From Sporichthya brevicatena (GTDB taxonomy: Bacteria; Actinomycetota; Actinomycetes; Sporichthyales; Sporichthyaceae): DNA of 64,000 bases. The stretch covers positions 310,001 through 374,000 of the forward strand of contig NZ_BAAAHE010000007.1 in assembly GCF_039525035.1 (NCBI RefSeq), read 5' to 3'. Of the stretch, positions 22,875-35,599 are shown in pieces. Positions within the stretch are counted from its first letter, which is position 1. Each line of letters begins with the position of its first letter. The translations under genes and the position numbers were made by a program. The notes beneath the pieces are model-generated. The model was given only the letters and a program-made list of their open reading frames with translations, made no database searches and had not been told where the DNA came from.

Positions 22875-22909
22875 GTGCTCATGACGAGCTCGCTTCGCTC
22901 GCTCATGAC
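22875..22909. repeat. Palindrome between fliF and fliG
   Basis: TCATGA boxes flank a CGAGC..GCTCG stem around the loop TCGCTTC, directly after the fliF stop. It would fold into a small hairpin on the minus-strand mRNA; termination or RNA protection are both possible. Confidence 0.45.
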
Positions 22910-24504
22910 CGCCGGTCCGCGAGCCAGCCGCGCAGCAACTGCGCGACCTCGTCGGGCTGGGTCTTCACGAGGTCACCGACGTCGTGGCGGGCGTCGGCGG
23001 CCGGCGACGCGGCGAGCTCGCCGTAGGCGCCGGCGGCGACGCCACCCGGGACGGCGGTGAGCTCGGCCTCCGCCTGCTGCGCGGCCAGCGCGCGCTGCAG
23101 AGCCTCGATCTCGCGGCGGTCCTCGGCCACCCGTGACATCCGAGCCATCTTGCGCCGGCCCCAGAGGAAGAGCATCAGCAGGAGCAACGCACCACCGAGG
23201 TACTTGGCGCCGGTGAAGATCATGCTGTTGCGCTTCGCGGCGGCCTCGGCCTTCTTCGCGGCGGCGAGCTCCTCGGCGGCCGCGTTGGCCGCGGTCTCGT
23301 CGAACGGCAGGGCGTCGACGACGACGGTGTCACCACGCTCGGTGTTCAGGCCGACCGCGGAGGAGACCAGCGCCTCGATCTGCGCGGTGTTCACCGCGGT
23401 CGCCGTCTTGGCGTCGAGCAGGACCGCGACGTTCAACTTGCGGACGGCACCGGGGGCGGAGGTCCGCTCCTCGACGACGCGGTTGAGCGGATTGTTCTGC
23501 GTCCCGGTCGTCTTCTCGTAGTTGCCGGTCCCGTTGGTGCCGTTGTTCGGCACGGCCTGGTTGTCCGGGCCGAGCACGCCGCCGACCGCCGCACCGTTGC
23601 CGGTGAACTTCTCGGTGGTGGTCGTCGTGGCCGACGGCTTGGTGCCGGGGTCGGTGAAGGTCTCGCTGGTGGTCTTCGTCGCGTCGAAGTCCAGGTCGGC
23701 GGAGAGCCGGACCTCGGAGTGGCCGGGGCCGACGACGCGATCGATCATCGCCTGCAGGTCGGAGGCGACGCGGGTCTCGTACTCGCGGGTCTGCTGCGCG
23801 CGGTTGTCCGCCGCGGTGCCGGCCGACGACTCGGCGGAGGCCGAGAGCGTCTTGCCGCTGGAGTCGGCGACGGTGACCTGGTCGGGCTTGAGGTTCTCCA
23901 CCGCGGAGGAGACCAGGTTGACGATCGCCTGGACCTGACCCGACGTCAGTGACGTCCCGGGCGCGGTGTCGACGAGCACGGACGCCTTGGCCGAGTCGGA
24001 CTGCTTGGTGAAGACCGTCTTCTCCGGCAGCGCCAGGTGCACGACCGCGGTGGTGACGCCGTCGATGCCTTGGACGGTGCGGGCGAGCTCGCCCTCCAGC
24101 GCGCGCCGGTAACCGACGTCCTGCTGGAACTTCGAGGTCGTGATGCCCTGCTTGTCGAGGATGCCCCAACCGCTGCTGCTGGAGCTCGGGGCGATGCCCT
24201 TGCCGCTCATCGCGATGCGGGTGTCGTAGACCATCGACTGGGGGACCAGGATCGTCGTCCCGCCGTTGGCCAGCTGGTACGGCGTGCCCGCCGCGTTGAG
24301 CTGGTCGACGATCGCGGACGCGTCCGCCGGCGCGACGTTGGTGAACAGCGGCGCGTAGGTCGGCTTGGTCGCCCAGGACATGAAGAAGTAGGCGCCGAAC
24401 AGCAGCCCGAGGACCCCGACCACCGAGACGACCTTCTGGCCGACGGTGAACGAGGAGAACATCCGGCCGCCCTTGCCGAGCAGGCCGGAGACGACGGGTG
24501 GCAT
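22903..24504 (-). CDS. fliF: FliF, MS-ring protein
   Basis: 533 aa. Helix 1 at ~23-45 (VVSVVGVLGLLFGAYFFMSW), ring-building motifs with YDTRIAMSGKGIAPSSSSSGWGILDKQ and YRRALEGELARTVQGIDGV, and helix 2 near 430 (YLGGALLLLMLFLWG). The C-terminus binds FliG. The ATG follows GGAGAT at 6 nt. Confidence 0.97.
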   Translation of the reverse strand: MPPVVSGLLGKGGRMFSSFTVGQKVVSVVGVLGLLFGAYFFMSWATKPTYAPLFTNVAPADASAIVDQLNAAGTPYQLANGGTTILVPQSMVYDTRIAMSGKGIAPSSSSSGWGILDKQGITTSKFQQDVGYRRALEGELARTVQGIDGVTTAVVHLALPEKTVFTKQSDSAKASVLVDTAPGTSLTSGQVQAIVNLVSSAVENLKPDQVTVADSSGKTLSASAESSAGTAADNRAQQTREYETRVASDLQAMIDRVVGPGHSEVRLSADLDFDATKTTSETFTDPGTKPSATTTTTEKFTGNGAAVGGVLGPDNQAVPNNGTNGTGNYEKTTGTQNNPLNRVVEERTSAPGAVRKLNVAVLLDAKTATAVNTAQIEALVSSAVGLNTERGDTVVVDALPFDETAANAAAEELAAAKKAEAAAKRNSMIFTGAKYLGGALLLLMLFLWGRRKMARMSRVAEDRREIEALQRALAAQQAEAELTAVPGGVAAGAYGELAASPAADARHDVGDLVKTQPDEVAQLLRGWLADRRS

Positions 24505-24553
24505 CAGTGGATCTCCGTCACTTTCGCCGGGACATTCGCCGAGGAGCGCGCCG

Positions 24554-24859
24554 TCACAGCGGCATCCGCAGGATCTCGTTGAACGCCTCGACCGCCTTGT
24601 TCCGGACGGCCACGGTCAGCTCGGTCGCGAGCTGGGCCTGGGTGGCGGCGATCGTGTACTGGTGGACGTCGGTCAGCTGACCGGTCGCGGCCTGGACCGC
24701 GAGCCCCTCGGCCTTGGCCTGGGTGCCGGCCAGGGCCTCGAGGCCGTTGCCGAGCGCGGTCGCGAACGAGTCGCCGGACGGGACCGCGGCGGTGGCGCCG
24801 GTGGCGACGGGCGGGGCGATCGGGGCGATCGGCGTGAAGCCGACGGGCGAGATGCTCAT
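24554..24859 (-). CDS. fliE: FliE, MS ring-rod junction protein
   Basis: 101 aa. Family pattern: SFATALGNGLEALAGTQAKAEGLAVQAATGQLTDVHQYTIAATQAQLATELTVAVRNKAVEAFNEILRM. Start overlaps the flgC stop as ATGA. Confidence 0.94.
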   Translation of the reverse strand: MSISPVGFTPIAPIAPPVATGATAAVPSGDSFATALGNGLEALAGTQAKAEGLAVQAATGQLTDVHQYTIAATQAQLATELTVAVRNKAVEAFNEILRMPL

Positions 24860-25266
24860 GCGCGTCCGATCTGAATGGCGGCCGAGTAGGCGTCACGGGC
24901 GCGGTCCACGACCGCGAGCGAGGCCTGGTAGCCGCGCTGCGCGACGATCAGCTGGGTCATCTGGGCGGCGAGGTCGATGTCCGGCAGGCGCACGTTGCCG
25001 TTCTCGTCCGCCAGCGGGTGCTGCGGGTCGTAGACGATCCGGCCCTCGGCGTTGCCGAGCACGGCGCCGGCGACCGCGACGCCGCCGGTCCCGTTGCCGT
25101 AGTCGACGGCCTGCGCGAGCACGTAGCGCGCGCGGAACGCCTCCTCGTTCGTCGACCGGACGGTGTTGACGTTGGCGATGTTGTCGGCGACCGCGTCGAG
25201 CCACTTGCGGTGGACGGTGACGCCGGAGCCGGCGATGCCGAAGACGGAGAACAGGCTCATCGTCAC
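24856..25266 (-). CDS. flgC: FlgC, proximal rod protein
   Basis: 136 aa from GTG at 25266, or 134 aa from ATG at 25260. The GTG is favoured because it makes a GTGA overlap with flgB, like most junctions in the operon. Rod motifs: GIAGSGVTVHRKWLDAVADNIANVNT and the C-terminal DLAAQMTQLIVAQRGYQASLAVVDRARD. Confidence 0.95.
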   Translation of the reverse strand: MTMSLFSVFGIAGSGVTVHRKWLDAVADNIANVNTVRSTNEEAFRARYVLAQAVDYGNGTGGVAVAGAVLGNAEGRIVYDPQHPLADENGNVRLPDIDLAAQMTQLIVAQRGYQASLAVVDRARDAYSAAIQIGRA

Positions 25267-25631
25267 ACCGCCCGCATCGAGGCGCGCAGGATGCCGAACT
25301 CGTGGTCGGCGGCCCGCAGCATCAGGGAGTAGCGCAGACCGGTGTCGACGTTGAGCAGCGTCTCCCGGTCGAGGTTGACGTTGTTGCCGTCGGTGCGGGT
25401 CGGCTCGAGCGAGCGGGCGATCGACCAGGTGGGACCGCCGGAGGTGTCGCCGGTGGCGACGGCGCTCGCGAGCGCGTCCTCGAACTGCACCTTGCCGGCG
25501 AGGAAGCCGGGCGTGTTGATGTTCGCGACGTTGTCCGCGATCGCGCGCTGGCGGGCGGCAAGACCGTCCAGGGCACTGGTGATCGCGTACATCGCGACAT
25601 TGCCGGATGTGAGGCCGATGGCGTCGAACAC
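25263..25631 (-). CDS. flgB: FlgB, proximal rod protein; first gene of the flagellar operon
   Basis: 122 aa from a GTG with GGAG 6 nt upstream. Rod motif LDGLAARQRAIADNVANINTPGF, then VNLDRETLLNVDTGLRYSLMLRAADHEFGILR. An in-frame upstream extension to 25898 exists but is Pro/Arg-rich and shows no rod homology. A sigma-28-like promoter at 25722-25748 lies 90 nt upstream. Confidence 0.93.
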   Translation of the reverse strand: MFDAIGLTSGNVAMYAITSALDGLAARQRAIADNVANINTPGFLAGKVQFEDALASAVATGDTSGGPTWSIARSLEPTRTDGNNVNLDRETLLNVDTGLRYSLMLRAADHEFGILRASMRAV

Positions 25632-25721
25632 GGACCGCTCCGATGCGGGGGATCGAAACTGCTGGTGGGGCAGCGCCGGTCCGTGGCGCTTGAGGGGGTG
25701 GCCGTCCTGGCTCGCCGGTTC

Positions 25722-25748
25722 TTGTCGGCCGGTCGGACGGGGAGTTGA
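25722..25748 (-). promoter_or_regulatory. Sigma-28-type promoter of the flgB operon
   Basis: On the minus strand: TCAA, 15 nt, GCCGACAA. It lies ~90 nt upstream of flgB. Two parts and the spacing agree with the cheA and flhA sites. Confidence 0.6.
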
Positions 25749-25815
25749 GGAGTCGGAGCCGACTCTCGTCACGGATTGTTGCCGGGGCGCAGCGGGACCG
25801 CCGGGCCGCAAGGAC

Positions 25816-25829
25816 GGGACTTTCGACCC
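25816..25829. promoter_or_regulatory. DosR-box-like site
   Basis: GGGACTTTCGACCC fits the mycobacterial DosR consensus GGGACTTNNGNCCC at every fixed position. It lies between flgB and the DosR-like gene, 185 bp and 315 bp from their starts. Confidence 0.45.
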
Positions 25830-26055
25830 TGGGTCGTCGGCGCCGGGCCCGGTTTCATGCTGGTCAGGCGGCCGTCGAACTCCCGGCCGGCGACTCACTC
25901 TGGCGGGTGAGAAGACTCGGGGTGACGTGAGGGCCTGGATCGTTGCGGTCGATCCGGGCCCTCACGGCTGTCCTGGGGGATTCGGCGCGAAATCTGGCGG
26001 TGTGTCACGGCTGCGGCAATCCACAATGTGGCGTCCACCGAATACCGTCGGCCGG

Positions 26056-26871: not shown

Positions 26872-26883
26872 TTGTCCGTACAA
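26872..26883. promoter_or_regulatory. Operator-like palindrome upstream of the persulfide dioxygenase gene
   Basis: TTGTCCGTACAA, one mismatch from the perfect palindrome at 29206-29217. It lies 41 bp before the start codon, within a likely promoter. Confidence 0.5.
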
Positions 26884-26924: not shown

Positions 26925-28316
26925 ATGATCCTCGACCAGTACTACCTGCAGTGTCTGTCGCAGGCGTCCTACCTGGTGGCGGACCCCGTCAGCCGCCGGG
27001 CGGTCGTCGTCGACCCCCGCCGCGACGTCGAGCAGTACCTGCAGGACGCGAAGGCGCAGGACCTGACGATCGAACTGGTCGTGCTCACCCACGTCCACGC
27101 CGACTTCATTCCGGGTCACACCGAGCTGTCCGAGCGGACCGGCGCGGAGATCGCGATGGGTGAGGTCTCGCCGGTCGAGTTCCCGATCCGTCGCCTCGCC
27201 GACGGCGAGCGCATCCCGCTGGGCGACCCGGAGACCGGCGTCGTCCTGGAGGTGCTGGCCACCCCGGGCCACACGCCCGAGTCGATCACCCTCGTCGTGT
27301 ACGAGCGGGGGAGCGACCCCACGCCGCACGCGATCCTCACCGGCGACACGCTCTTCCTCGGTGACGTCGGCCGGCCCGACCTGCTCGGCTCGGCCGGCCG
27401 CACCGCCGACGAGATGGCGCGCCTGCTGTACCGCTCGCTGCACACGAAGCTGCTGCCGCTGCCCGACGAGGTCCTCGTCTACCCGGGTCACGGCGCCGGC
27501 AGCGCGTGCGGCAAGGCGCTCTCGACCGACACCGTCTCCACCCTGGGCGAGCAGCGCCGCGGCAACTACGCGCTCGCGCCGATGAGCGAGGACGAGTTCG
27601 TCGCCGTCGTCACCGAGGGTCTCGGGGCGCCGCCGGTGTACTTCGTCGACGAGGTCGCGGTGAACAAGTCCGGGCACCTCCCGTTCGACCCGGAGCTCCC
27701 GGTGCAGGAGGTCGACGCGGCCACCGCGATCAGCCACCAGGAGCGCCTGGGCTACCTGCTGCTCGACGTCCGCGACGACCAGGCCTTCGCCGCCTCCCAC
27801 CTGCGGGGCGCGATCAACGTCGGCCTCTCGGGCCGGTTCGCCGAGTACGCCGCGGCCCTGATCGCCGCCGACCAGCCGGTGATCCTCGTCGGCTCGCCCG
27901 AGCAGTGCGCCGAGGCGCGGCTGCGGCTGGCCCGCGTCGGTCTCGACCTCGTCGCCTGTCAGCTGACCGACCTCGAGGAGCTGACGAACAACCCCGAGCT
28001 GGTCGTCTCCTCCTCAAGGCTGACGGTGCATCAGGCTGCCGAGGCGATCGCGGCGAACCCCGACCTGCAGGTCGTCGACGTCCGCGGCCCCGGCGAGCAC
28101 AAGGGCGGCGCCCTCCCGGGGGCGGTCAACCTCTGCGTCACCCGGTTGCGGACGGCGCTGGACCAGCTCGACCGCTCCCGCCCGGTCCTCGTCCACTGCG
28201 CCGGCGGCTACCGCTCCATCGCCGCCGCGAGCCTGCTCGAGGCCAACGGCTTCTCCGACGTCTCCGACCTCCTCGGCGGCTACTCCGCCTGGGCCGCCGA
28301 GTCCTCCGCCGCGTAG
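26925..28316 (+). CDS. Persulfide-dioxygenase-type MBL protein fused to two rhodanese domains
   Basis: 463 aa. The N-terminal ~240 residues are a metallo-beta-lactamase fold with THVHADFIPGH (His56, His58, Asp60, His65), a further His in ATPGHTPES, and GDTLFLGDVGRPDL, resembling ETHE1-type persulfide dioxygenases. Rhodanese 1 (~265-350) has VILVGSPEQ where the catalytic loop should be, with no Cys, so it is probably structural. Rhodanese 2 (~365-460) has VHCAGGYRS with the active Cys. It would oxidise glutathione- or thiol-persulfide to sulfite and move sulfane sulfur. ATG follows GGAGGAG. The element at 28348 ends the transcript. Confidence 0.85.
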   Translation: MILDQYYLQCLSQASYLVADPVSRRAVVVDPRRDVEQYLQDAKAQDLTIELVVLTHVHADFIPGHTELSERTGAEIAMGEVSPVEFPIRRLADGERIPLGDPETGVVLEVLATPGHTPESITLVVYERGSDPTPHAILTGDTLFLGDVGRPDLLGSAGRTADEMARLLYRSLHTKLLPLPDEVLVYPGHGAGSACGKALSTDTVSTLGEQRRGNYALAPMSEDEFVAVVTEGLGAPPVYFVDEVAVNKSGHLPFDPELPVQEVDAATAISHQERLGYLLLDVRDDQAFAASHLRGAINVGLSGRFAEYAAALIAADQPVILVGSPEQCAEARLRLARVGLDLVACQLTDLEELTNNPELVVSSSRLTVHQAAEAIAANPDLQVVDVRGPGEHKGGALPGAVNLCVTRLRTALDQLDRSRPVLVHCAGGYRSIAAASLLEANGFSDVSDLLGGYSAWAAESSAA

Positions 28317-28425: not shown

Positions 28426-28764
28426 TCAGTGGAGGATCGCGACGAGGTCGGCGACGCCGAGGAGCAGGACCCCGGCGGTGAGGATCATCAGCGGTCGGGT
28501 GGGCACGCGGGCGTAGCGGGTCCGGTCGCTGTCGCCGATCTCGCGGGCGCGGAGGCGGCCGAGGCCGGCGACCAGCAGCGCGAGCGCGAGGGACAGCGCC
28601 GCACTGACGATCCGGGCCGGGCTGCCGTCGGTGGGGTTGCGGACGAGAACGAACGCGCCGTGGGCGATCAGGGCCAGCGCGGTCCGGTCCCAGGCCAGCA
28701 TCGTCCGCTGCGCGGGCAGGCCGGGGAGCCGTCCGCGCGGACCGGAGACCGGGGTCAGGCGCAT
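28426..28764 (-). CDS. DUF202 family membrane protein
   Basis: 112 aa with three membrane helices. It begins with an RTMLAWDRTALALI motif, the DUF202 hallmark. Start ATG at 28764 shares a base with the stop of the next DUF202 gene, so the two form an operon. Function unknown in the family. Confidence 0.75.
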   Translation of the reverse strand: MRLTPVSGPRGRLPGLPAQRTMLAWDRTALALIAHGAFVLVRNPTDGSPARIVSAALSLALALLVAGLGRLRAREIGDSDRTRYARVPTRPLMILTAGVLLLGVADLVAILH

Positions 28765-29132
28765 CAGCGCGCGAGGAGCACGACGACGGCGATCCCGACC
28801 GCCACGACGGCCAGCCCGAGGTAGATCGGCGCCCGTGACGCCGGCAGGTTCTCGTGCCGCTGCATCGCCCGTTGGACGGTCTGCCAGCGTCGCATGCTGC
28901 CGAGCGTGACGGCGATGCCGAGCAGTGCGAGGGCGAACCCGATCCCGCGCTCGGCGTTGTCGGCCTCGTCCCCGGCCTGCGGGACGAGGTGGACGAGCGC
29001 GACCGCGCCGGCCAGCAGCCCCAGGGCCGTGCGCAGCCAGGCGAGGTAGGTCCGCTCGTTCGCGAGCGTGAACCGGTAGTCCAGGTCGTAGTCGTCCTGG
29101 GCCGGTCGTGGGTCGGGGGCGTGTTGGTCCAT
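28764..29132 (-). CDS. YidH-like DUF202 membrane protein
   Basis: 122 aa. DUF202/YidH motif FTLANERTYLAWLRTALGLLAGAVALVHLV, three helices in all. A GGGGAGG ribosome site precedes the ATG at 7 nt. Divergent from the oxidoreductase operon, 120 bp apart. Function unknown. Confidence 0.82.
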   Translation of the reverse strand: MDQHAPDPRPAQDDYDLDYRFTLANERTYLAWLRTALGLLAGAVALVHLVPQAGDEADNAERGIGFALALLGIAVTLGSMRRWQTVQRAMQRHENLPASRAPIYLGLAVVAVGIAVVVLLAR

Positions 29133-29205: not shown

Positions 29206-29217
29206 TTGTACGTACAA
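29206..29217. promoter_or_regulatory. Operator-like palindrome upstream of the oxidoreductase operon
   Basis: TTGTACGTACAA, a perfect 12-bp palindrome 35 bp before the start of the 4Fe-4S/NrfD gene. It matches the site at 26872-26883 in 11 of 12 bases and in distance to the start codon. Confidence 0.5.
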
Positions 29218-29252: not shown

Positions 29253-30851
29253 ATGCGCTACGGATTCGCGATCGACCAGCGCACCTGTATCGGGTGCCAC
29301 GCCTGCACGGTCGCGTGCAAGACCGAGCACGAGATCCCGGTCGGGCAGTTCCGGACCTGGGTCAAGTACGTCGACTCGGGCACCTTCCCCGAGAACACCC
29401 GCGACTTCGGCGTCATGCGCTGCAACCACTGCACGGATGCCCCGTGCGTGAAGATCTGCCCGACGCATGCGCTGTTCACGCGCTCGGACGGGATCGTCGA
29501 CTTCGACAGCGAGAACTGCATCGGCTGCAAGTCCTGCATGCAGGCCTGCCCGTACGACGCGATCTACATCGACGAGAACACCCACACCGCGGCGAAGTGC
29601 AACTTCTGCGCGCACCGGGTCGACGAGGGCCTCGAGCCCGCCTGCGTCGTCGTGTGCCCGACCCACTCGATCTGGGTCGGTGACCTGGAGGACGAGAACT
29701 CCGGCATCTCGCAACTGATCGCCGAGAACCCGACGCGCGTCCGCGCCCCCGAGCAGAAGACCGGCCCGAACGTCTTCTACATCGGCGCCTCGATCCCGGT
29801 CCTCGACCCACTCCAGGCCCCGGCGGATCAGGCGTACATCTACTCCCAGCCCGACCCTCACCGGGCCGAGGTCGCGCAGCACCTCCCCCCGCCCGCGCCG
29901 AGCCTCGACGGCCCCGCCGTCACGACGCTGAACACCGCCCACCCCCGGCCGTGGGGTTGGCGGGTCACGACCTACCTCTGGACGAAGGGCATCGCGGCCG
30001 GCGCCCTGCTGGTCGTCGCGCTCGCGGTCCTGCTCGACGAGAACCTCGGCCGCTACCAGACCGTCTGGGCCCCGCTCATCGGTCTGGTCGGCGTCGCCGT
30101 CACCGGTGTGCTCCTGATCGCCGACCTCAAGCGCCCTGAGCGGTTCCTCTACATCTTCACCAAGGGCAACTGGACGTCCTGGCTGTTCAAGGGATCCCTC
30201 GCCCTGGTCGCCTTCGGCGCGGTCGCGAGCGCGTGGCTGGCGGTCGGGCTGTTCGCCGAATCCGGCAACGTCGGCTATCCGTACGAGCTGGTCGATGTAC
30301 TGGTCTACGTCTCGATCCCCGCCGCGGTGATGGCCGCCGGGTACACCGCCTTCCTCTTCGCCCAGGCCGAGGGCCGTGACCTGTGGCAGTCCAAGCTGCT
30401 GTTCCCGCACCTGCTCGCGCAGGCCGTGATGGTCGGTGCGGGCGTGCTCGCGATCCTGCTCGGTGCCTTCGGTGCGGACCCGAGCAGCCGCGACGGGTGG
30501 CACGACCGCGTGCCGACCCTCACGCCCGAGGGCCCCGGGTTCGAGCAGGTCGTCGTCCGCTGCCTCGTGGTCGCGACCGTCCTGCACATCGCGTTCGCGA
30601 TCGTGGAGTTCTACGCCTCCCACGAGACGAAGCAGGCGAGCGCCGCGGCCCACCTGGTGACGCACGGTCAGTACCGGCCGATGTTCCTCGGCTCTCTCGC
30701 CCTCGCGTTCGTCTCGGCGGCGGTCGCGATGTTCGCCTGGGACGGGGACAACCTCGGCGCCGCGCTCGCCGGCGGGATCGGCGTCCAGGTCGCCCTGCTG
30801 ATGTACGAGTCCGTGTTCGTCCGCGCGGGACAGGACGTGCCGCTCTCATGA
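29253..30851 (+). CDS. Fused 4Fe-4S ferredoxin/NrfD membrane subunit of a molybdoenzyme
   Basis: 532 aa. Residues ~1-190 are a four-cluster ferredoxin of the PsrB/NrfC/DmsB type: CIGCHACTVACK, CNHCTDAPCVKICP, CIGCKSCMQACP and CNFCAHRVDEGLEPACVVVCP give 16 cysteines. A Pro-rich linker (~195-230) joins it to an NrfD/PsrC-like domain with eight or more helices that would handle quinone. These are normally two proteins; here they are one. The ATG at 29253 follows GGGAGA. Its stop overlaps the molybdopterin gene as ATGA. With no signal peptide, the clusters likely face the cytoplasm. Confidence 0.88.
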   Translation: MRYGFAIDQRTCIGCHACTVACKTEHEIPVGQFRTWVKYVDSGTFPENTRDFGVMRCNHCTDAPCVKICPTHALFTRSDGIVDFDSENCIGCKSCMQACPYDAIYIDENTHTAAKCNFCAHRVDEGLEPACVVVCPTHSIWVGDLEDENSGISQLIAENPTRVRAPEQKTGPNVFYIGASIPVLDPLQAPADQAYIYSQPDPHRAEVAQHLPPPAPSLDGPAVTTLNTAHPRPWGWRVTTYLWTKGIAAGALLVVALAVLLDENLGRYQTVWAPLIGLVGVAVTGVLLIADLKRPERFLYIFTKGNWTSWLFKGSLALVAFGAVASAWLAVGLFAESGNVGYPYELVDVLVYVSIPAAVMAAGYTAFLFAQAEGRDLWQSKLLFPHLLAQAVMVGAGVLAILLGAFGADPSSRDGWHDRVPTLTPEGPGFEQVVVRCLVVATVLHIAFAIVEFYASHETKQASAAAHLVTHGQYRPMFLGSLALAFVSAAVAMFAWDGDNLGAALAGGIGVQVALLMYESVFVRAGQDVPLS

Positions 30852-33664
30852 CCACCGAACTGCCCGGCCACCGGACCCACGAGCACCTGCGGAACTTCCC
30901 GCCGGTCGAGAACTGGGACAACCACGTCGAGTACGACGCGAAGGCCCACCCGCGGAAGGTGCCGCGGGAGTACATGCTGATCCCGACGACGTGCTTCAAC
31001 TGCGAGTCCGCGTGCGGGCTGCTCGCCTACGTCGACAAGAACGACCTGTCGATCAAGAAGCTCGAGGGCAACCCGGCGCACCCGGGCTCCCGGGGCCGCA
31101 ACTGCGCCAAGGGCCCGGCGACGGTCAACCAGGTTCACGACCCGGAGCGGATCCTGCACCCGCTCAAGCGGGTGGGGGAGCGTGGCGGCGGCCAGTGGCA
31201 GCAGGTCAGCTGGGACGAAGCCCTCGACGACATCGCCGGCCGGATCCGCAAGGCGATTTCGGAGAACCGCCACGAGGAGGTCGCGTACCACGTCGGGCGT
31301 CCCGGTGAGGACGGCTTCGCCGAGCGGGTGCTTCAGGCCTGGGGCATCGACGGGCACAACTCCCACACGCAGGTCTGCTCGTCCGGCGCGCGTCTGGGCC
31401 AGACCCTGTGGGGCGGCTACGACCGGCCGAGCCCGGATCACGCCAACGCCAAGGTGATCCTGCTGTTCTCCAGTCACCTGGAGACCGGGCATTACTTCAA
31501 CCCCCACGCGCAGCGGATCATGGAGGGCAAGCAGTCCGGGGCGAAACTGATCGTCGTCGACCCGCGGATGTCGAACACGGCCTCCCATGCTGACGTCTGG
31601 CTCGCCCCGTGGCCCGGCAGCGAGGCCGCGATCCTGCTCGCGATCGCGAGCCACCTCCTGAAGACCCGTCAGATCGACGAGGCCTATCTGCGACGCTGGT
31701 TCAACTGGGACGTCTACCTGCAGAACCTGCACCCCGAGAAGTCGACGTTCGAGGAGTTCCTCGACTGCCTCGAGGCGGACTACGCCGACTACACCTTCGA
31801 GTTCGCGGCGGCGGAGTCGCAGCTGCCGGCGGAGAAGATCCGGGAGATCGCGGAGATCGTCGCCGACTGCGACCACCGGCTCTCCGCGCACATCTGGCGC
31901 AGCGCCGCGGCCGGGAACTACGGCGGCTGGGCGGTCAGCCGCGCGCTGTGGTTCGTGCTCGCGCTGACCGGGTCCATCGGCACCGTCGGCGGCACCGCGC
32001 CCAACGGGTGGAACAAGTTCATCCCGCACGGCCCCGACGTCCCGGCGCACGACCACTGGAACGAGCTGCACTGGCCGCCGGAGTACCCGTTGGCCTGCAA
32101 CGAGATGTCGATCCTGCTGCCGCACTTCCTCGCCGAGGGCCGCGGCGTGATGGACGTGTACTTCAGCCGCGTCTTCAACCCGATCTGGACCTACCCCGAC
32201 GGGTTCACCTGGATGAAGGCGCTGACGGACGAGAGCAAGGTCCGCTGCCACGTCGCGCTGACGCCGACGTGGTCGGAGACCGCCGAGTTCGCGGACTACA
32301 TCCTCCCGATGGGTCACGCGCCCGAGCGCCACGACACCCACTCCTACGAGACGCACTCGAGCCGGTGGCTCGGCTTCCGCCAGCCGGTGAAGCGCGTCGC
32401 GATGGAGAAGCTCGGGATGCCCTACGCCGACACCCGCGACGCCAACCCGGGCGAGGTGTGGGAGGAGAACGAGCTCTGGTTCGAGCTGTCGTGGCGCATC
32501 GACCCCGACGGGTCGATGGGGATCCGGCAGCACTTCGAATCCAAGTACCGCCCGGGCGAGAAAGTCACGGTCGACGAGTACTACCGGTGGATCTTCGAGA
32601 ACCGCGTCCCGAACCTGCCCGAGAAGGCCGAGCGGGAGGGCCTGACCCCGCTGGAGTACATGCGCCGTTACGGCGTCGTCGAGGTCGCGGACCAGCTCTA
32701 CCGGCAGGACGAGCGCCCGCTGACCGAGGCCGAGCTCGAGAACGCCGTCCCCGACGAGCGGGGCGTGCTCCGCAAGCCGACTGACGGGGACTCAGTCCCG
32801 CCGCTGATCGGCGAGGCCGGCGCGGTCGGTGTCCAGCACGAGGACGGCACTGTCACCGCCGGCTGGCTGTCCCCGAGCCGGAAGCTGGAGCTGTACTCCG
32901 AGGCGATGCGTGACTGGGGCTGGCCCGAGCACGCGACCCCCGGGTACATCCGCTCCCACGTCGCGGCCGACCAGATCGACCTGACTGCCGGCGACCTCGT
33001 CCTCGTCCCGACGTTCCGGCTGCCGACGCTGATCCACACCCGGTCCGGCAACGCGAAGTACCTCAACGAGATCTCGAACAGCCATCCGCTGTGGCTGAAC
33101 TCCGTCGACGCCGCGCGGCACGGGGTGAAGACGGGCGACCTGGTCCGGCTGCGGACGTCGATCGGCTACTTCGTCCCCCGCGTGTGGGTGACCGAGGCGA
33201 TCCGCCCGGGCGTCTGCGCGCTCAGCCACCACATGGGCCGCTGGCGCCTGCACGACACCGAGGGCAGCCGCTGGGCGCAGGGCCTGGTCGACATCTCCCA
33301 CCCGGACGGACCGGACTCGTTCTTCCTCCGCTACCGCGGCGGGATCCAGCCCTTCACGAGTGACGACCCCGACTCCGAGCGCATCTGGTGGACCGACCCC
33401 GGCGTGCACCAGAACCTCGCCTTCGCCGTCCAGGCCGACCCGTGGTCGGGTCAGCAGTGCTGGCTCCAGAAGGTCCGGATGACCCCCGCCGAGGCGACCG
33501 ACCAGTACGGCGACGTCTACGTCGACACCGCGAAGTCGATGGAGATGTACCGCGAGTGGCTCGCCAAGACCCGAGCCACCCTCGGCCCCGGCGGCCAGCG
33601 CCGCCCCGAGTTTTTGATGCGCCCGGTGAAGCCCCGCCGCCGCGCCTTCCGCGTCGAGACATAG
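30848..33664 (+). CDS. Molybdopterin oxidoreductase catalytic subunit (PsrA/PhsA/TtrA-like)
   Basis: 938 aa. N-terminal 4Fe-4S site TTCFNCESACG with the fourth Cys in GRNCAKGP. The Mo-ligand position is Cys177 in TQVCSSGARLG, as in polysulfide, thiosulfate and tetrathionate reductases or Nap-type enzymes rather than the Ser of DmsA. A C-terminal molydopterin-binding domain follows (VLVPTFRLPTLIHTRSGNAKYLNEIS, then HHMGRWR). No twin-arginine signal is present, so it seems to act in the cytoplasm. No maturation chaperone is adjacent. Substrate unknown; a sulfur compound is suggested only by the Cys ligand and neighbours. Confidence 0.87.
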   Translation: MTTELPGHRTHEHLRNFPPVENWDNHVEYDAKAHPRKVPREYMLIPTTCFNCESACGLLAYVDKNDLSIKKLEGNPAHPGSRGRNCAKGPATVNQVHDPERILHPLKRVGERGGGQWQQVSWDEALDDIAGRIRKAISENRHEEVAYHVGRPGEDGFAERVLQAWGIDGHNSHTQVCSSGARLGQTLWGGYDRPSPDHANAKVILLFSSHLETGHYFNPHAQRIMEGKQSGAKLIVVDPRMSNTASHADVWLAPWPGSEAAILLAIASHLLKTRQIDEAYLRRWFNWDVYLQNLHPEKSTFEEFLDCLEADYADYTFEFAAAESQLPAEKIREIAEIVADCDHRLSAHIWRSAAAGNYGGWAVSRALWFVLALTGSIGTVGGTAPNGWNKFIPHGPDVPAHDHWNELHWPPEYPLACNEMSILLPHFLAEGRGVMDVYFSRVFNPIWTYPDGFTWMKALTDESKVRCHVALTPTWSETAEFADYILPMGHAPERHDTHSYETHSSRWLGFRQPVKRVAMEKLGMPYADTRDANPGEVWEENELWFELSWRIDPDGSMGIRQHFESKYRPGEKVTVDEYYRWIFENRVPNLPEKAEREGLTPLEYMRRYGVVEVADQLYRQDERPLTEAELENAVPDERGVLRKPTDGDSVPPLIGEAGAVGVQHEDGTVTAGWLSPSRKLELYSEAMRDWGWPEHATPGYIRSHVAADQIDLTAGDLVLVPTFRLPTLIHTRSGNAKYLNEISNSHPLWLNSVDAARHGVKTGDLVRLRTSIGYFVPRVWVTEAIRPGVCALSHHMGRWRLHDTEGSRWAQGLVDISHPDGPDSFFLRYRGGIQPFTSDDPDSERIWWTDPGVHQNLAFAVQADPWSGQQCWLQKVRMTPAEATDQYGDVYVDTAKSMEMYREWLAKTRATLGPGGQRRPEFLMRPVKPRRRAFRVET

Positions 33665-34810: not shown

Positions 34811-35599
34811 ATGTCCAGCCCCGCGGCGCCGCGCGAGCTGGACCGTTCCTCCTCGCGTCCGCTGTGGGCGCAGCTGGAGGAGGACCTGCAGCGGCGCCTG
34901 GCGGACGGGGCGTTCGACACCGCGTTCCCCGGCGAGCACGAGCTCGCCGAGCAGTACGGCGTCAGTCGGCACACCGTCCGGGAGGCCCTGCGCCGGATGC
35001 GGGCCTCCGGCGTCGTCGACTCGACGCGGGGCCGCGGCAGCTCCGTCCGGCACGCGGCCATCGAGCAGCCGCTCGGCGCGCTGTACTCGCTGTTCCGCTC
35101 GGTCGAGGCCACCGGGGTCGAGCAGCGGAGCAAGGTGCGGGTCCTCGAACTGCGCCGGAACGCCGAGGTCGCGCAGACCCTCGGGGTCGACCCCGAGTCC
35201 GACCTCGTCCTCCTCGAGCGCCTCCGTCTCGCCGACGGCGAACCGCTGGCGCTCGACCGCAGCTGGCTCCCGCGCGAGGTCGGCGAACCCCTGCTCGGCG
35301 GGACGTTCGAGCACACCAGCCTCTACGGCGAGATGGCCCGGTTGACGGGCATCCGCCTCAACGGCGGCCGCGAGAGCATCACGGCTCTCGTCGCCGACGC
35401 CCCGACCCGGCGCCTGCTCGGCATCAAGGCCGACGTCGCCGTCCTCGCCGTCACCCGCATCGGCTGCCTCGACGGCCGGCCGCTGGAGTTCCGCGAGAGC
35501 CTGATCCGCGGCGACCGCTTCAGCCTCTCCGCGGAGTGGCCGGGCAACGCCGGCTACCGCGTCGACGTCGCCGGGATGCGCGGGGCCGAGAGCTCCTAG
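34811..35599 (+). CDS. GntR-family (HutC/UTRA type) transcription regulator
   Basis: 262 aa. N-terminal winged helix with LAEQYGVSRHTVREALRRMRASGVV, then a UTRA ligand domain (~100-250) with LVLLERLRLADGEPLALDRSWLP. Ligand unknown. The ATG at 34811 has GGAGGTG 8 nt upstream. It ends in a 4-bp overlap with the convergent hydrolase gene, so the two are not in one operon. Confidence 0.9.
   Translation: MSSPAAPRELDRSSSRPLWAQLEEDLQRRLADGAFDTAFPGEHELAEQYGVSRHTVREALRRMRASGVVDSTRGRGSSVRHAAIEQPLGALYSLFRSVEATGVEQRSKVRVLELRRNAEVAQTLGVDPESDLVLLERLRLADGEPLALDRSWLPREVGEPLLGGTFEHTSLYGEMARLTGIRLNGGRESITALVADAPTRRLLGIKADVAVLAVTRIGCLDGRPLEFRESLIRGDRFSLSAEWPGNAGYRVDVAGMRGAESS

Follow-up and report, generated by a model that had tools for sequence, protein, structure and literature searches.

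The window, i.e., the whole stretch of 64,000 nucleotides that was analysed, contains a gene which begins with the ATG at 29253 and ends with its stop codon at 30851, a single uninterrupted frame of 532 codons. Two Pfam families were found in the encoded protein: Fer4_11 at residues 55-144 (90.2 bits vs. a cut-off of 26.2) and NrfD (PF03916) at residues 227-522 (79.7 bits vs. a cut-off of 25.8), the protein thus belonging to the NrfD family. The ferredoxin half has 16 Cys (positions 12, 15, 18, 22, 57, 60, 65, 69, 89, 92, 95, 99, 116, 119, 131 and 135), which would be enough for four [4Fe-4S] clusters. A linker stretch (residues 180-232) contains 11 Pro among its 53 residues. The preliminary description of this DNA had proposed that two usually separate subunits are joined here through a Pro-rich linker, and the presence of both domains in one frame together with this Pro content bears it out. 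NrfD matches in the 5.2-Mb genome are limited to the fused gene.

The AlphaFold model of the fused protein has eight helices, all of them in the C-terminal half, and its membrane half is good. Since pLDDT is lower than 50 at residues 13-104 and 116-124, the model is uninformative on the packing of the ferredoxin half against the NrfD half. The fold search with the fused protein matched 2vpw_B and 2vpw_C (PsrABC) as well as 8k9e_C and 6btm_C (alternative complex III). The nearest solved relative of the ferredoxin half is PsrB (2vpw_B), and the NrfD half alone gave zero matches when compared with the PDB by sequence up to E = 1. The features of the locus are collected in Table 1. The 503-aa frame opposite the fused gene looks like a by-product of the high G+C content. 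Visual inspection of the translations suggests flagellar basal-body genes, a FliF-like one among them, at 22903-25898 on the minus strand.

Table 1. Features at and around the fused gene (positions in the window).
Feature	Position	Strand	Basis
MBL-rhodanese-rhodanese protein, persulfide-dioxygenase type	26925..28316	+	Pfam; best solved relatives 3tp9 and 3r2u (3r2u second)
One-mismatch copy of TTGTACGTACAA, 41 bp upstream of the MBL-rhodanese gene	26872..26883	.	motif search
Second DUF202 membrane protein	28426..28767	-	Pfam
DUF202 membrane protein, divergent neighbour of the fused gene	28764..29132	-	Pfam
Frame opposite the fused gene, 503 aa	29154-30665	-	ORF list
Palindrome TTGTACGTACAA, 35 bp upstream of the fused gene	29206..29217	.	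motif search
Fusion of ferredoxin (16 Cys), Pro-rich linker and NrfD domain, 8 membrane helices, 532 aa	29253..30851	+	ORF, Pfam, fold search, structure model
Molybdopterin catalytic subunit, 938 aa, without Tat leader, Cys177	30848..33664	+	Pfam, alignment, N-terminus
GntR-UTRA regulator, candidate binder of the palindrome	34811..35599	+	family match

The fused gene overlaps by 4 bp the gene of a molybdopterin oxidoreductase with an N-terminal [4Fe-4S] motif. The closest solved chain to this catalytic subunit is Thermus PsrA (E 7e-31), while its best NCBIfam match, PhsA, reaches 174.1 bits, i.e., far under the cut-off of 694. In the alignment with Thermus PsrA (2vpw_A), its Cys177 falls on position 173, the Mo ligand of that enzyme, and a Cys is found at this putative Mo-ligand position in 45/45 catalytic subunits of fused systems. 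Both the fusion and the conservation of the cofactor ligands were computed directly. The catalytic gene is present near the fused gene in 77 of the 80 best loci; two loci without it (L009 and L041) end less than 200 bp past the fused gene, and in L062 it was looked for near the fused gene and not found.

The fused gene is present in both other Sporichthya genomes compared (80% and 76% identity), and the closest named relative is the locus of a Sporichthya MAG (L002, which appears to be G002 in the genus set; 73% identity). In the best 80 genome-contig loci the alignment starts at or before residue 5 and ends at or after residue 531. The fused frame is free of stops in 79 of these loci, the exception being L055, which is frameshifted; one of the 79 (L054) misses about 50 residues around the linker. 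The identity to the fused protein is 44-75% across the alignment for 33/33 aligned rows. A frameshift or sequencing error, named in the preliminary description as what would overturn the fusion, was looked for and none was found; the fusion is genuine. That two genes were joined artificially by a frameshift or an assembly error is highly improbable, since no supporting evidence was found and relatives of this divergence, the two genus genomes included, keep one frame.

The fused form occurs in at least seven bacterial phyla and also in haloarchaea. The rows of the 50-row tree described below come from Actinomycetota, Acidobacteriota, Rokuibacteriota, Chloroflexota, Thermomicrobiota, Planctomycetota, Myxococcota and Thermodesulfobacteriota, of which single labels may be wrong because many source genomes are MAGs. 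Plasmid-borne fused forms are found in Rhodococcus jostii RHA1 (on pRHL3), in Thermomicrobium roseum and in haloarchaea. Among 396 genomes drawn evenly across the phylum, 39 have the fused form (E <= 3.6e-79, no stop); in 12 of them the ferredoxin part alone matches at this threshold, in a frame of 539-616 aa with room for both domains, and this frame was inspected in two (L125 and L126). In G358, B and C are encoded by separate adjacent frames (L127), and the match in G284 contains one internal stop.

Some individual cases must be noted. Pseudonocardia asaccharolytica (G405; L054) has two fused copies, one of full length (68% identity) and one about 50 residues short at the linker. The fused system is also present in L026 and L027, both titled Bifidobacterium breve MAGs, a label which looks wrong because the tree places both of them among freshwater actinobacteria. 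A similar ferredoxin is found at the C-terminus of frames of 650-731 aa in L122 (5782-7953, minus strand), L123 (5834-7783, minus strand) and L124 (3650-5842, plus strand), where it adjoins molybdopterin frames of about 1430-1520 aa.

A phylogeny of fused and unfused forms, proposed earlier as a check, was run on 50 rows, i.e., 37 fused chains (mostly picked by similarity) and 13 unfused ones with B and C concatenated; L054 (because of its linker gap), L125 and L126 were left out. The 37 fused rows form a single branch with an SH-aLRT support of 98, and the fused/unfused character takes one change on this tree, which is a quick one without bootstrap and in which several unfused rows are long branches. 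In the tree of the catalytic subunits, 45/45 rows of fused systems, L125 and L126 among them, group with a Sulfurovum row (support 100). The fused label takes there two changes and not one, because the Sulfurovum row, long and truncated, sits in an unresolved fork. The catalytic gene of this nearest unfused relative, on a Sulfurovum mangrovi plasmid (L115, 4840-8400), is interrupted in its record and is unannotated in the PLSDB table.

The gene order is B-C-A in the unfused relatives L114, L115, L117-L119, L127, L128, L133 and L135, and A-B-C in Phs, Dms and L145. Since several unfused relatives have the B-C-A order, the fusion can be the joining of neighbouring genes.

The preliminary description had also claimed that, with the ferredoxin at the N-terminus and no signal, the topology differs from that of Tat-exported NrfC/PsrB complexes. 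The claim is supported by two independent tests, namely the N-termini of the partner catalytic subunits and the distribution of positive charges, both computed directly. A Tat leader is found in 0/45 catalytic subunits of fused systems (the window and 44 loci, of which one pair, L002/G002, is identical), vs. a twin-arginine motif in 13/13 unfused comparators: 11 by pattern, TtrA by eye and Sulfurovum in the other frame of its interrupted gene. The pattern is imperfect, as it missed the TtrA leader (TRRQWL), and the N-terminal sequences of the fused rows were inspected by eye as well. Pattern matches in the fused rows L051 and L112 lie at about residues 36-43, right before the cluster motif, and were not counted as leaders.

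For the second test, Lys and Arg were counted in the loops on each side of the membrane. They are in excess on the ferredoxin side in 34/34 aligned fused rows (mean 12.3 vs. 1.3) and in 87/87 fused rows mapped pairwise (12.0 vs. 1.6), the smallest difference among the 87 being 2, in the frameshifted L055. The sign is opposite in E. coli NrfD (5 vs. 12), TtrC (6/12) and DmsC (4/8), as well as in the C subunits of L114, L115, L117, L118, L127 and L135. Two unfused chains have the same sign as the fused ones, L119 (20 vs. 4) and HybB (16 vs. 5); an untrimmed leader gives L119 a ninth segment, and HybB has ten segments, which explains their deviation.

The lack of a Tat leader on the partner and the positive charge on the ferredoxin side thus support a ferredoxin end that would face the cytoplasm and an NrfD half inverted with reference to NrfD. 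In other words, the ferredoxin, placed ahead of helix 1, would stay inside, and the NrfD half would be upside down as compared with NrfD and PsrC. Since the fusion attaches the ferredoxin to one end of helix 1, the membrane side is readable from the sequence. This side is of importance inasmuch as subunits of the NrfD type may link the chemistry of the quinone with the movement of ions. The unfused Sulfurovum relative has a Tat motif and an outward charge pattern (5 vs. 15); as judged from this one relative, the fusion, the loss of Tat and the inversion would thus fall at the same place on the tree.

Upstream of the fused gene lies the MBL-rhodanese gene, whose product is a probable source of sulfite. 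The two DUF202 genes sit between these genes on the opposite strand; a relative is found in 11/80 loci, and the pair (28426-29132) is kept in both genus genomes. At least one gene for making, carrying or exporting sulfite or sulfur lies near 53 of the 80 fused loci. The raw counts are: MBL/persulfide-dioxygenase type, 35; TusA, 26; DsrE2, 24; Mrp/NBP35, 22; SulP, 13; TauE, 8; SauS, 5; Xsc, 4; SauT, 4 (any of Xsc, SauS and SauT, 7 loci); taurine-type binding protein, 3. A family scan of one representative each confirmed TusA, DsrE2, Mrp, SulP, TauE and a CoA-ligase; NCBIfam gave 1078 bits for Xsc (cut-off 676) and 800 for SauS (cut-off 600), and the taurine binding protein scored under its family cut-off. 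One neighbour cluster («c14»), which matched all 80 loci, was an ORF-calling artefact, its start overlapping the fused gene of L010 on the opposite strand, and was not counted. Xsc, the persulfide dioxygenase and the exporters all have to do with sulfite or with its product.

The fused gene and the MBL-rhodanese gene are also linked by the palindrome TTGTACGTACAA. Within one mismatch, the 5.2-Mb genome contains two sites only, 2.3 kb apart, one before each of these genes; shuffles of the window give 0.00 expected sites, and the reversed control pattern gives zero sites in the same genome. This rarity was computed directly. Genome G001 has one exact and one one-mismatch site upstream of the same two genes. 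In L002 the exact palindrome is upstream of the fused gene and a one-mismatch copy is located where SulP and GntR adjoin, about 100 bp upstream of the GntR match; in L012 (a Pseudonocardia MAG) an exact copy lies about 50 bp before the MBL-rhodanese match. The palindrome is absent, within two mismatches, from 30 of the 35 upstream regions examined, and from 4 of the 14 loci having a GntR relative. The GntR-UTRA protein (96% identity in G001 and 87% in G002/L002; relatives in 12/80 loci, L002 included) may bind both palindromes. As both genes have it, the palindrome is a link, independent of gene order, between the fused enzyme and persulfide metabolism. For comparison, the repressor BigR is presumably of the ArsR type. 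In the BigR/Blh system, H2S is oxidised to sulfite under repressor control, according to the accessible part of PMC5823870.

The fused protein and its catalytic subunit are, in our opinion, rather probably a cytoplasm-facing sulfite:menaquinone oxidoreductase, similar to SoeABC with SoeB and SoeC fused; its substrate, the direction of its electron flow and the kind of its quinone are what we infer. Cytoplasmic sulfite would come here probably from the MBL-rhodanese protein, which shares the putative operator, and in relatives also from the cleavage of sulfonates by Xsc. Sulfite would be converted to sulfate at the Mo centre held by Cys177. The electrons would leave the catalytic subunit through its [4Fe-4S] cluster, move along the four clusters of the ferredoxin half and reach a quinone site within the NrfD half. 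Several results count against the sulfite reading: (i) most of the 80 loci that are outside Actinomycetota have no sulfur gene nearby; (ii) no Xsc over the cut-off is found in the window genome; (iii) the sole TusA of this genome is on another contig; (iv) three other Oxidored_molyb matches (sulfite-oxidase fold) over the cut-off in this genome could handle sulfite. No sign of a PadBCD-like role (phenylacetyl-CoA oxidoreductase) was seen in the annotated neighbour clusters.

The substrate could instead be sulfane sulfur, either as persulfide or thiosulfonate on the carriers TusA/DsrE2 or as thiosulfate from the MBL-rhodanese protein, with a quinone as acceptor. TusA and DsrE2, where present, are mostly directly upstream of the fused gene, and the MBL protein has two rhodanese stretches and, as second-best solved relative, 3r2u, which we take to be S. 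aureus CstB with thiosulfate as product. However, the Xsc/Sau contexts give sulfite without sulfane sulfur, and neither TusA nor DsrE2 is beside the fused gene of the window, thus we consider this alternative unlikely. The enzyme could also work in the reverse direction, as a cytoplasmic analogue of PsrABC/PhsABC which faces inward and reduces polysulfide, thiosulfate or a similar compound with quinol. This would fit the likeness of the catalytic chain to PsrA and PhsA and that of the ferredoxin to PsrB, but it is quite unlikely given the low PhsA score, the absence of a Tat leader and the neighbours, which make or export sulfite and sulfate. Moreover, many of the named host organisms are actinomycetes with an aerobic physiology.

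Returning to sulfite oxidation, a broader picture can be proposed tentatively, which is slightly less likely than not. The fused chains, bacterial and haloarchaeal, would be one clade whose quinone module was flipped in the membrane with the fusion and the Tat loss; they would form a respiratory cytoplasmic sulfite:quinone oxidoreductase of actinomycetes oxidising sulfonates and persulfides, and some lineages may take sulfur directly from TusA/DsrE2.

Among known systems, SoeABC (Allochromatium vinosum, Aquifex aeolicus; annotated in Ruegeria pomeroyi) is similar as judged from descriptions: a molybdoenzyme, a four-cluster ferredoxin, an NrfD/PsrC anchor and an expected cytoplasmic side are given in the accessible sections of PMC8076601, where SoeC is expected to be inverted with reference to other NrfD-type subunits, without direct proof. 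The fused system likewise has catalytic and ferredoxin parts predicted to be cytoplasmic (from the Tat and charge results) and an anchor of NrfD/PsrC type (PF03916 and the fold match with 2vpw_C). SoeABC has three separate subunits, whereas B and C are one chain here, hence the system is not filed as SoeABC and is SoeABC-like only in its working. In R. pomeroyi, soeC, soeB and soeA (SPO3557-3559; sulfite dehydrogenase) are annotated beside pta and tauR in the accessible part of PMC4334477, thus both soe genes and the fused form are found beside genes of sulfonate degradation. In a search for SoeABC on plasmids via the catalytic subunit, four candidates were inspected, none of which is a proven SoeABC: L143 encodes a formate dehydrogenase set, L144 has a molybdoenzyme but no B and C next to it, L145 is haloarchaeal with the order A-B-C and a Tat leader, and L146 is an unannotated stretch.

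PsrABC/PhsABC share the fold of both halves (2vpw_B and 2vpw_C) and the aligned Mo-ligand Cys, but the fused system differs by the lack of a Tat leader, an inverted anchor, the B-C fusion and a score far under the PhsA cut-off. NrfCD, TtrBC and DsrOP also combine a ferredoxin with an anchor of the NrfD family; however, their subunits are separate and the charge pattern of NrfD and TtrC is opposite. The fused protein is under the cut-offs for NrfC (152.1 of 377.6), TtrB (185.9 of 416), DsrO (168.5 of 200) and DsrP. With the alternative complex III (ActB, ActC), the fused protein shares the NrfD fold in its membrane half (8k9e_C and 6btm_C). ActB chains, of about 930-1040 aa, combine a molybdoenzyme-like part with a ferredoxin that lies close to the chain end (6lod_B, 682-792), whereas in the fused protein the partner of the ferredoxin is the membrane subunit, the molybdoenzyme with Cys177 being separate.

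The accessible part of the listing of NrfD complexes in PMC8076601 makes no mention of fusion or fused forms, and the enzyme is undescribed in the accessible parts of the open literature on NrfD, SoeABC, sulfite dehydrogenase/Xsc and TusA/DsrE (PMC5114278, PMC13019369, PMC4334477, PMC10732223, PMC4013037, PMC13047784 and PMC6776052), an earlier description in a review being possible. Quinone modules made of NrfD, ferredoxin and molybdoenzyme are thus known; what appears to be new is the fusion of B and C in one chain, which would face inward and is widespread.
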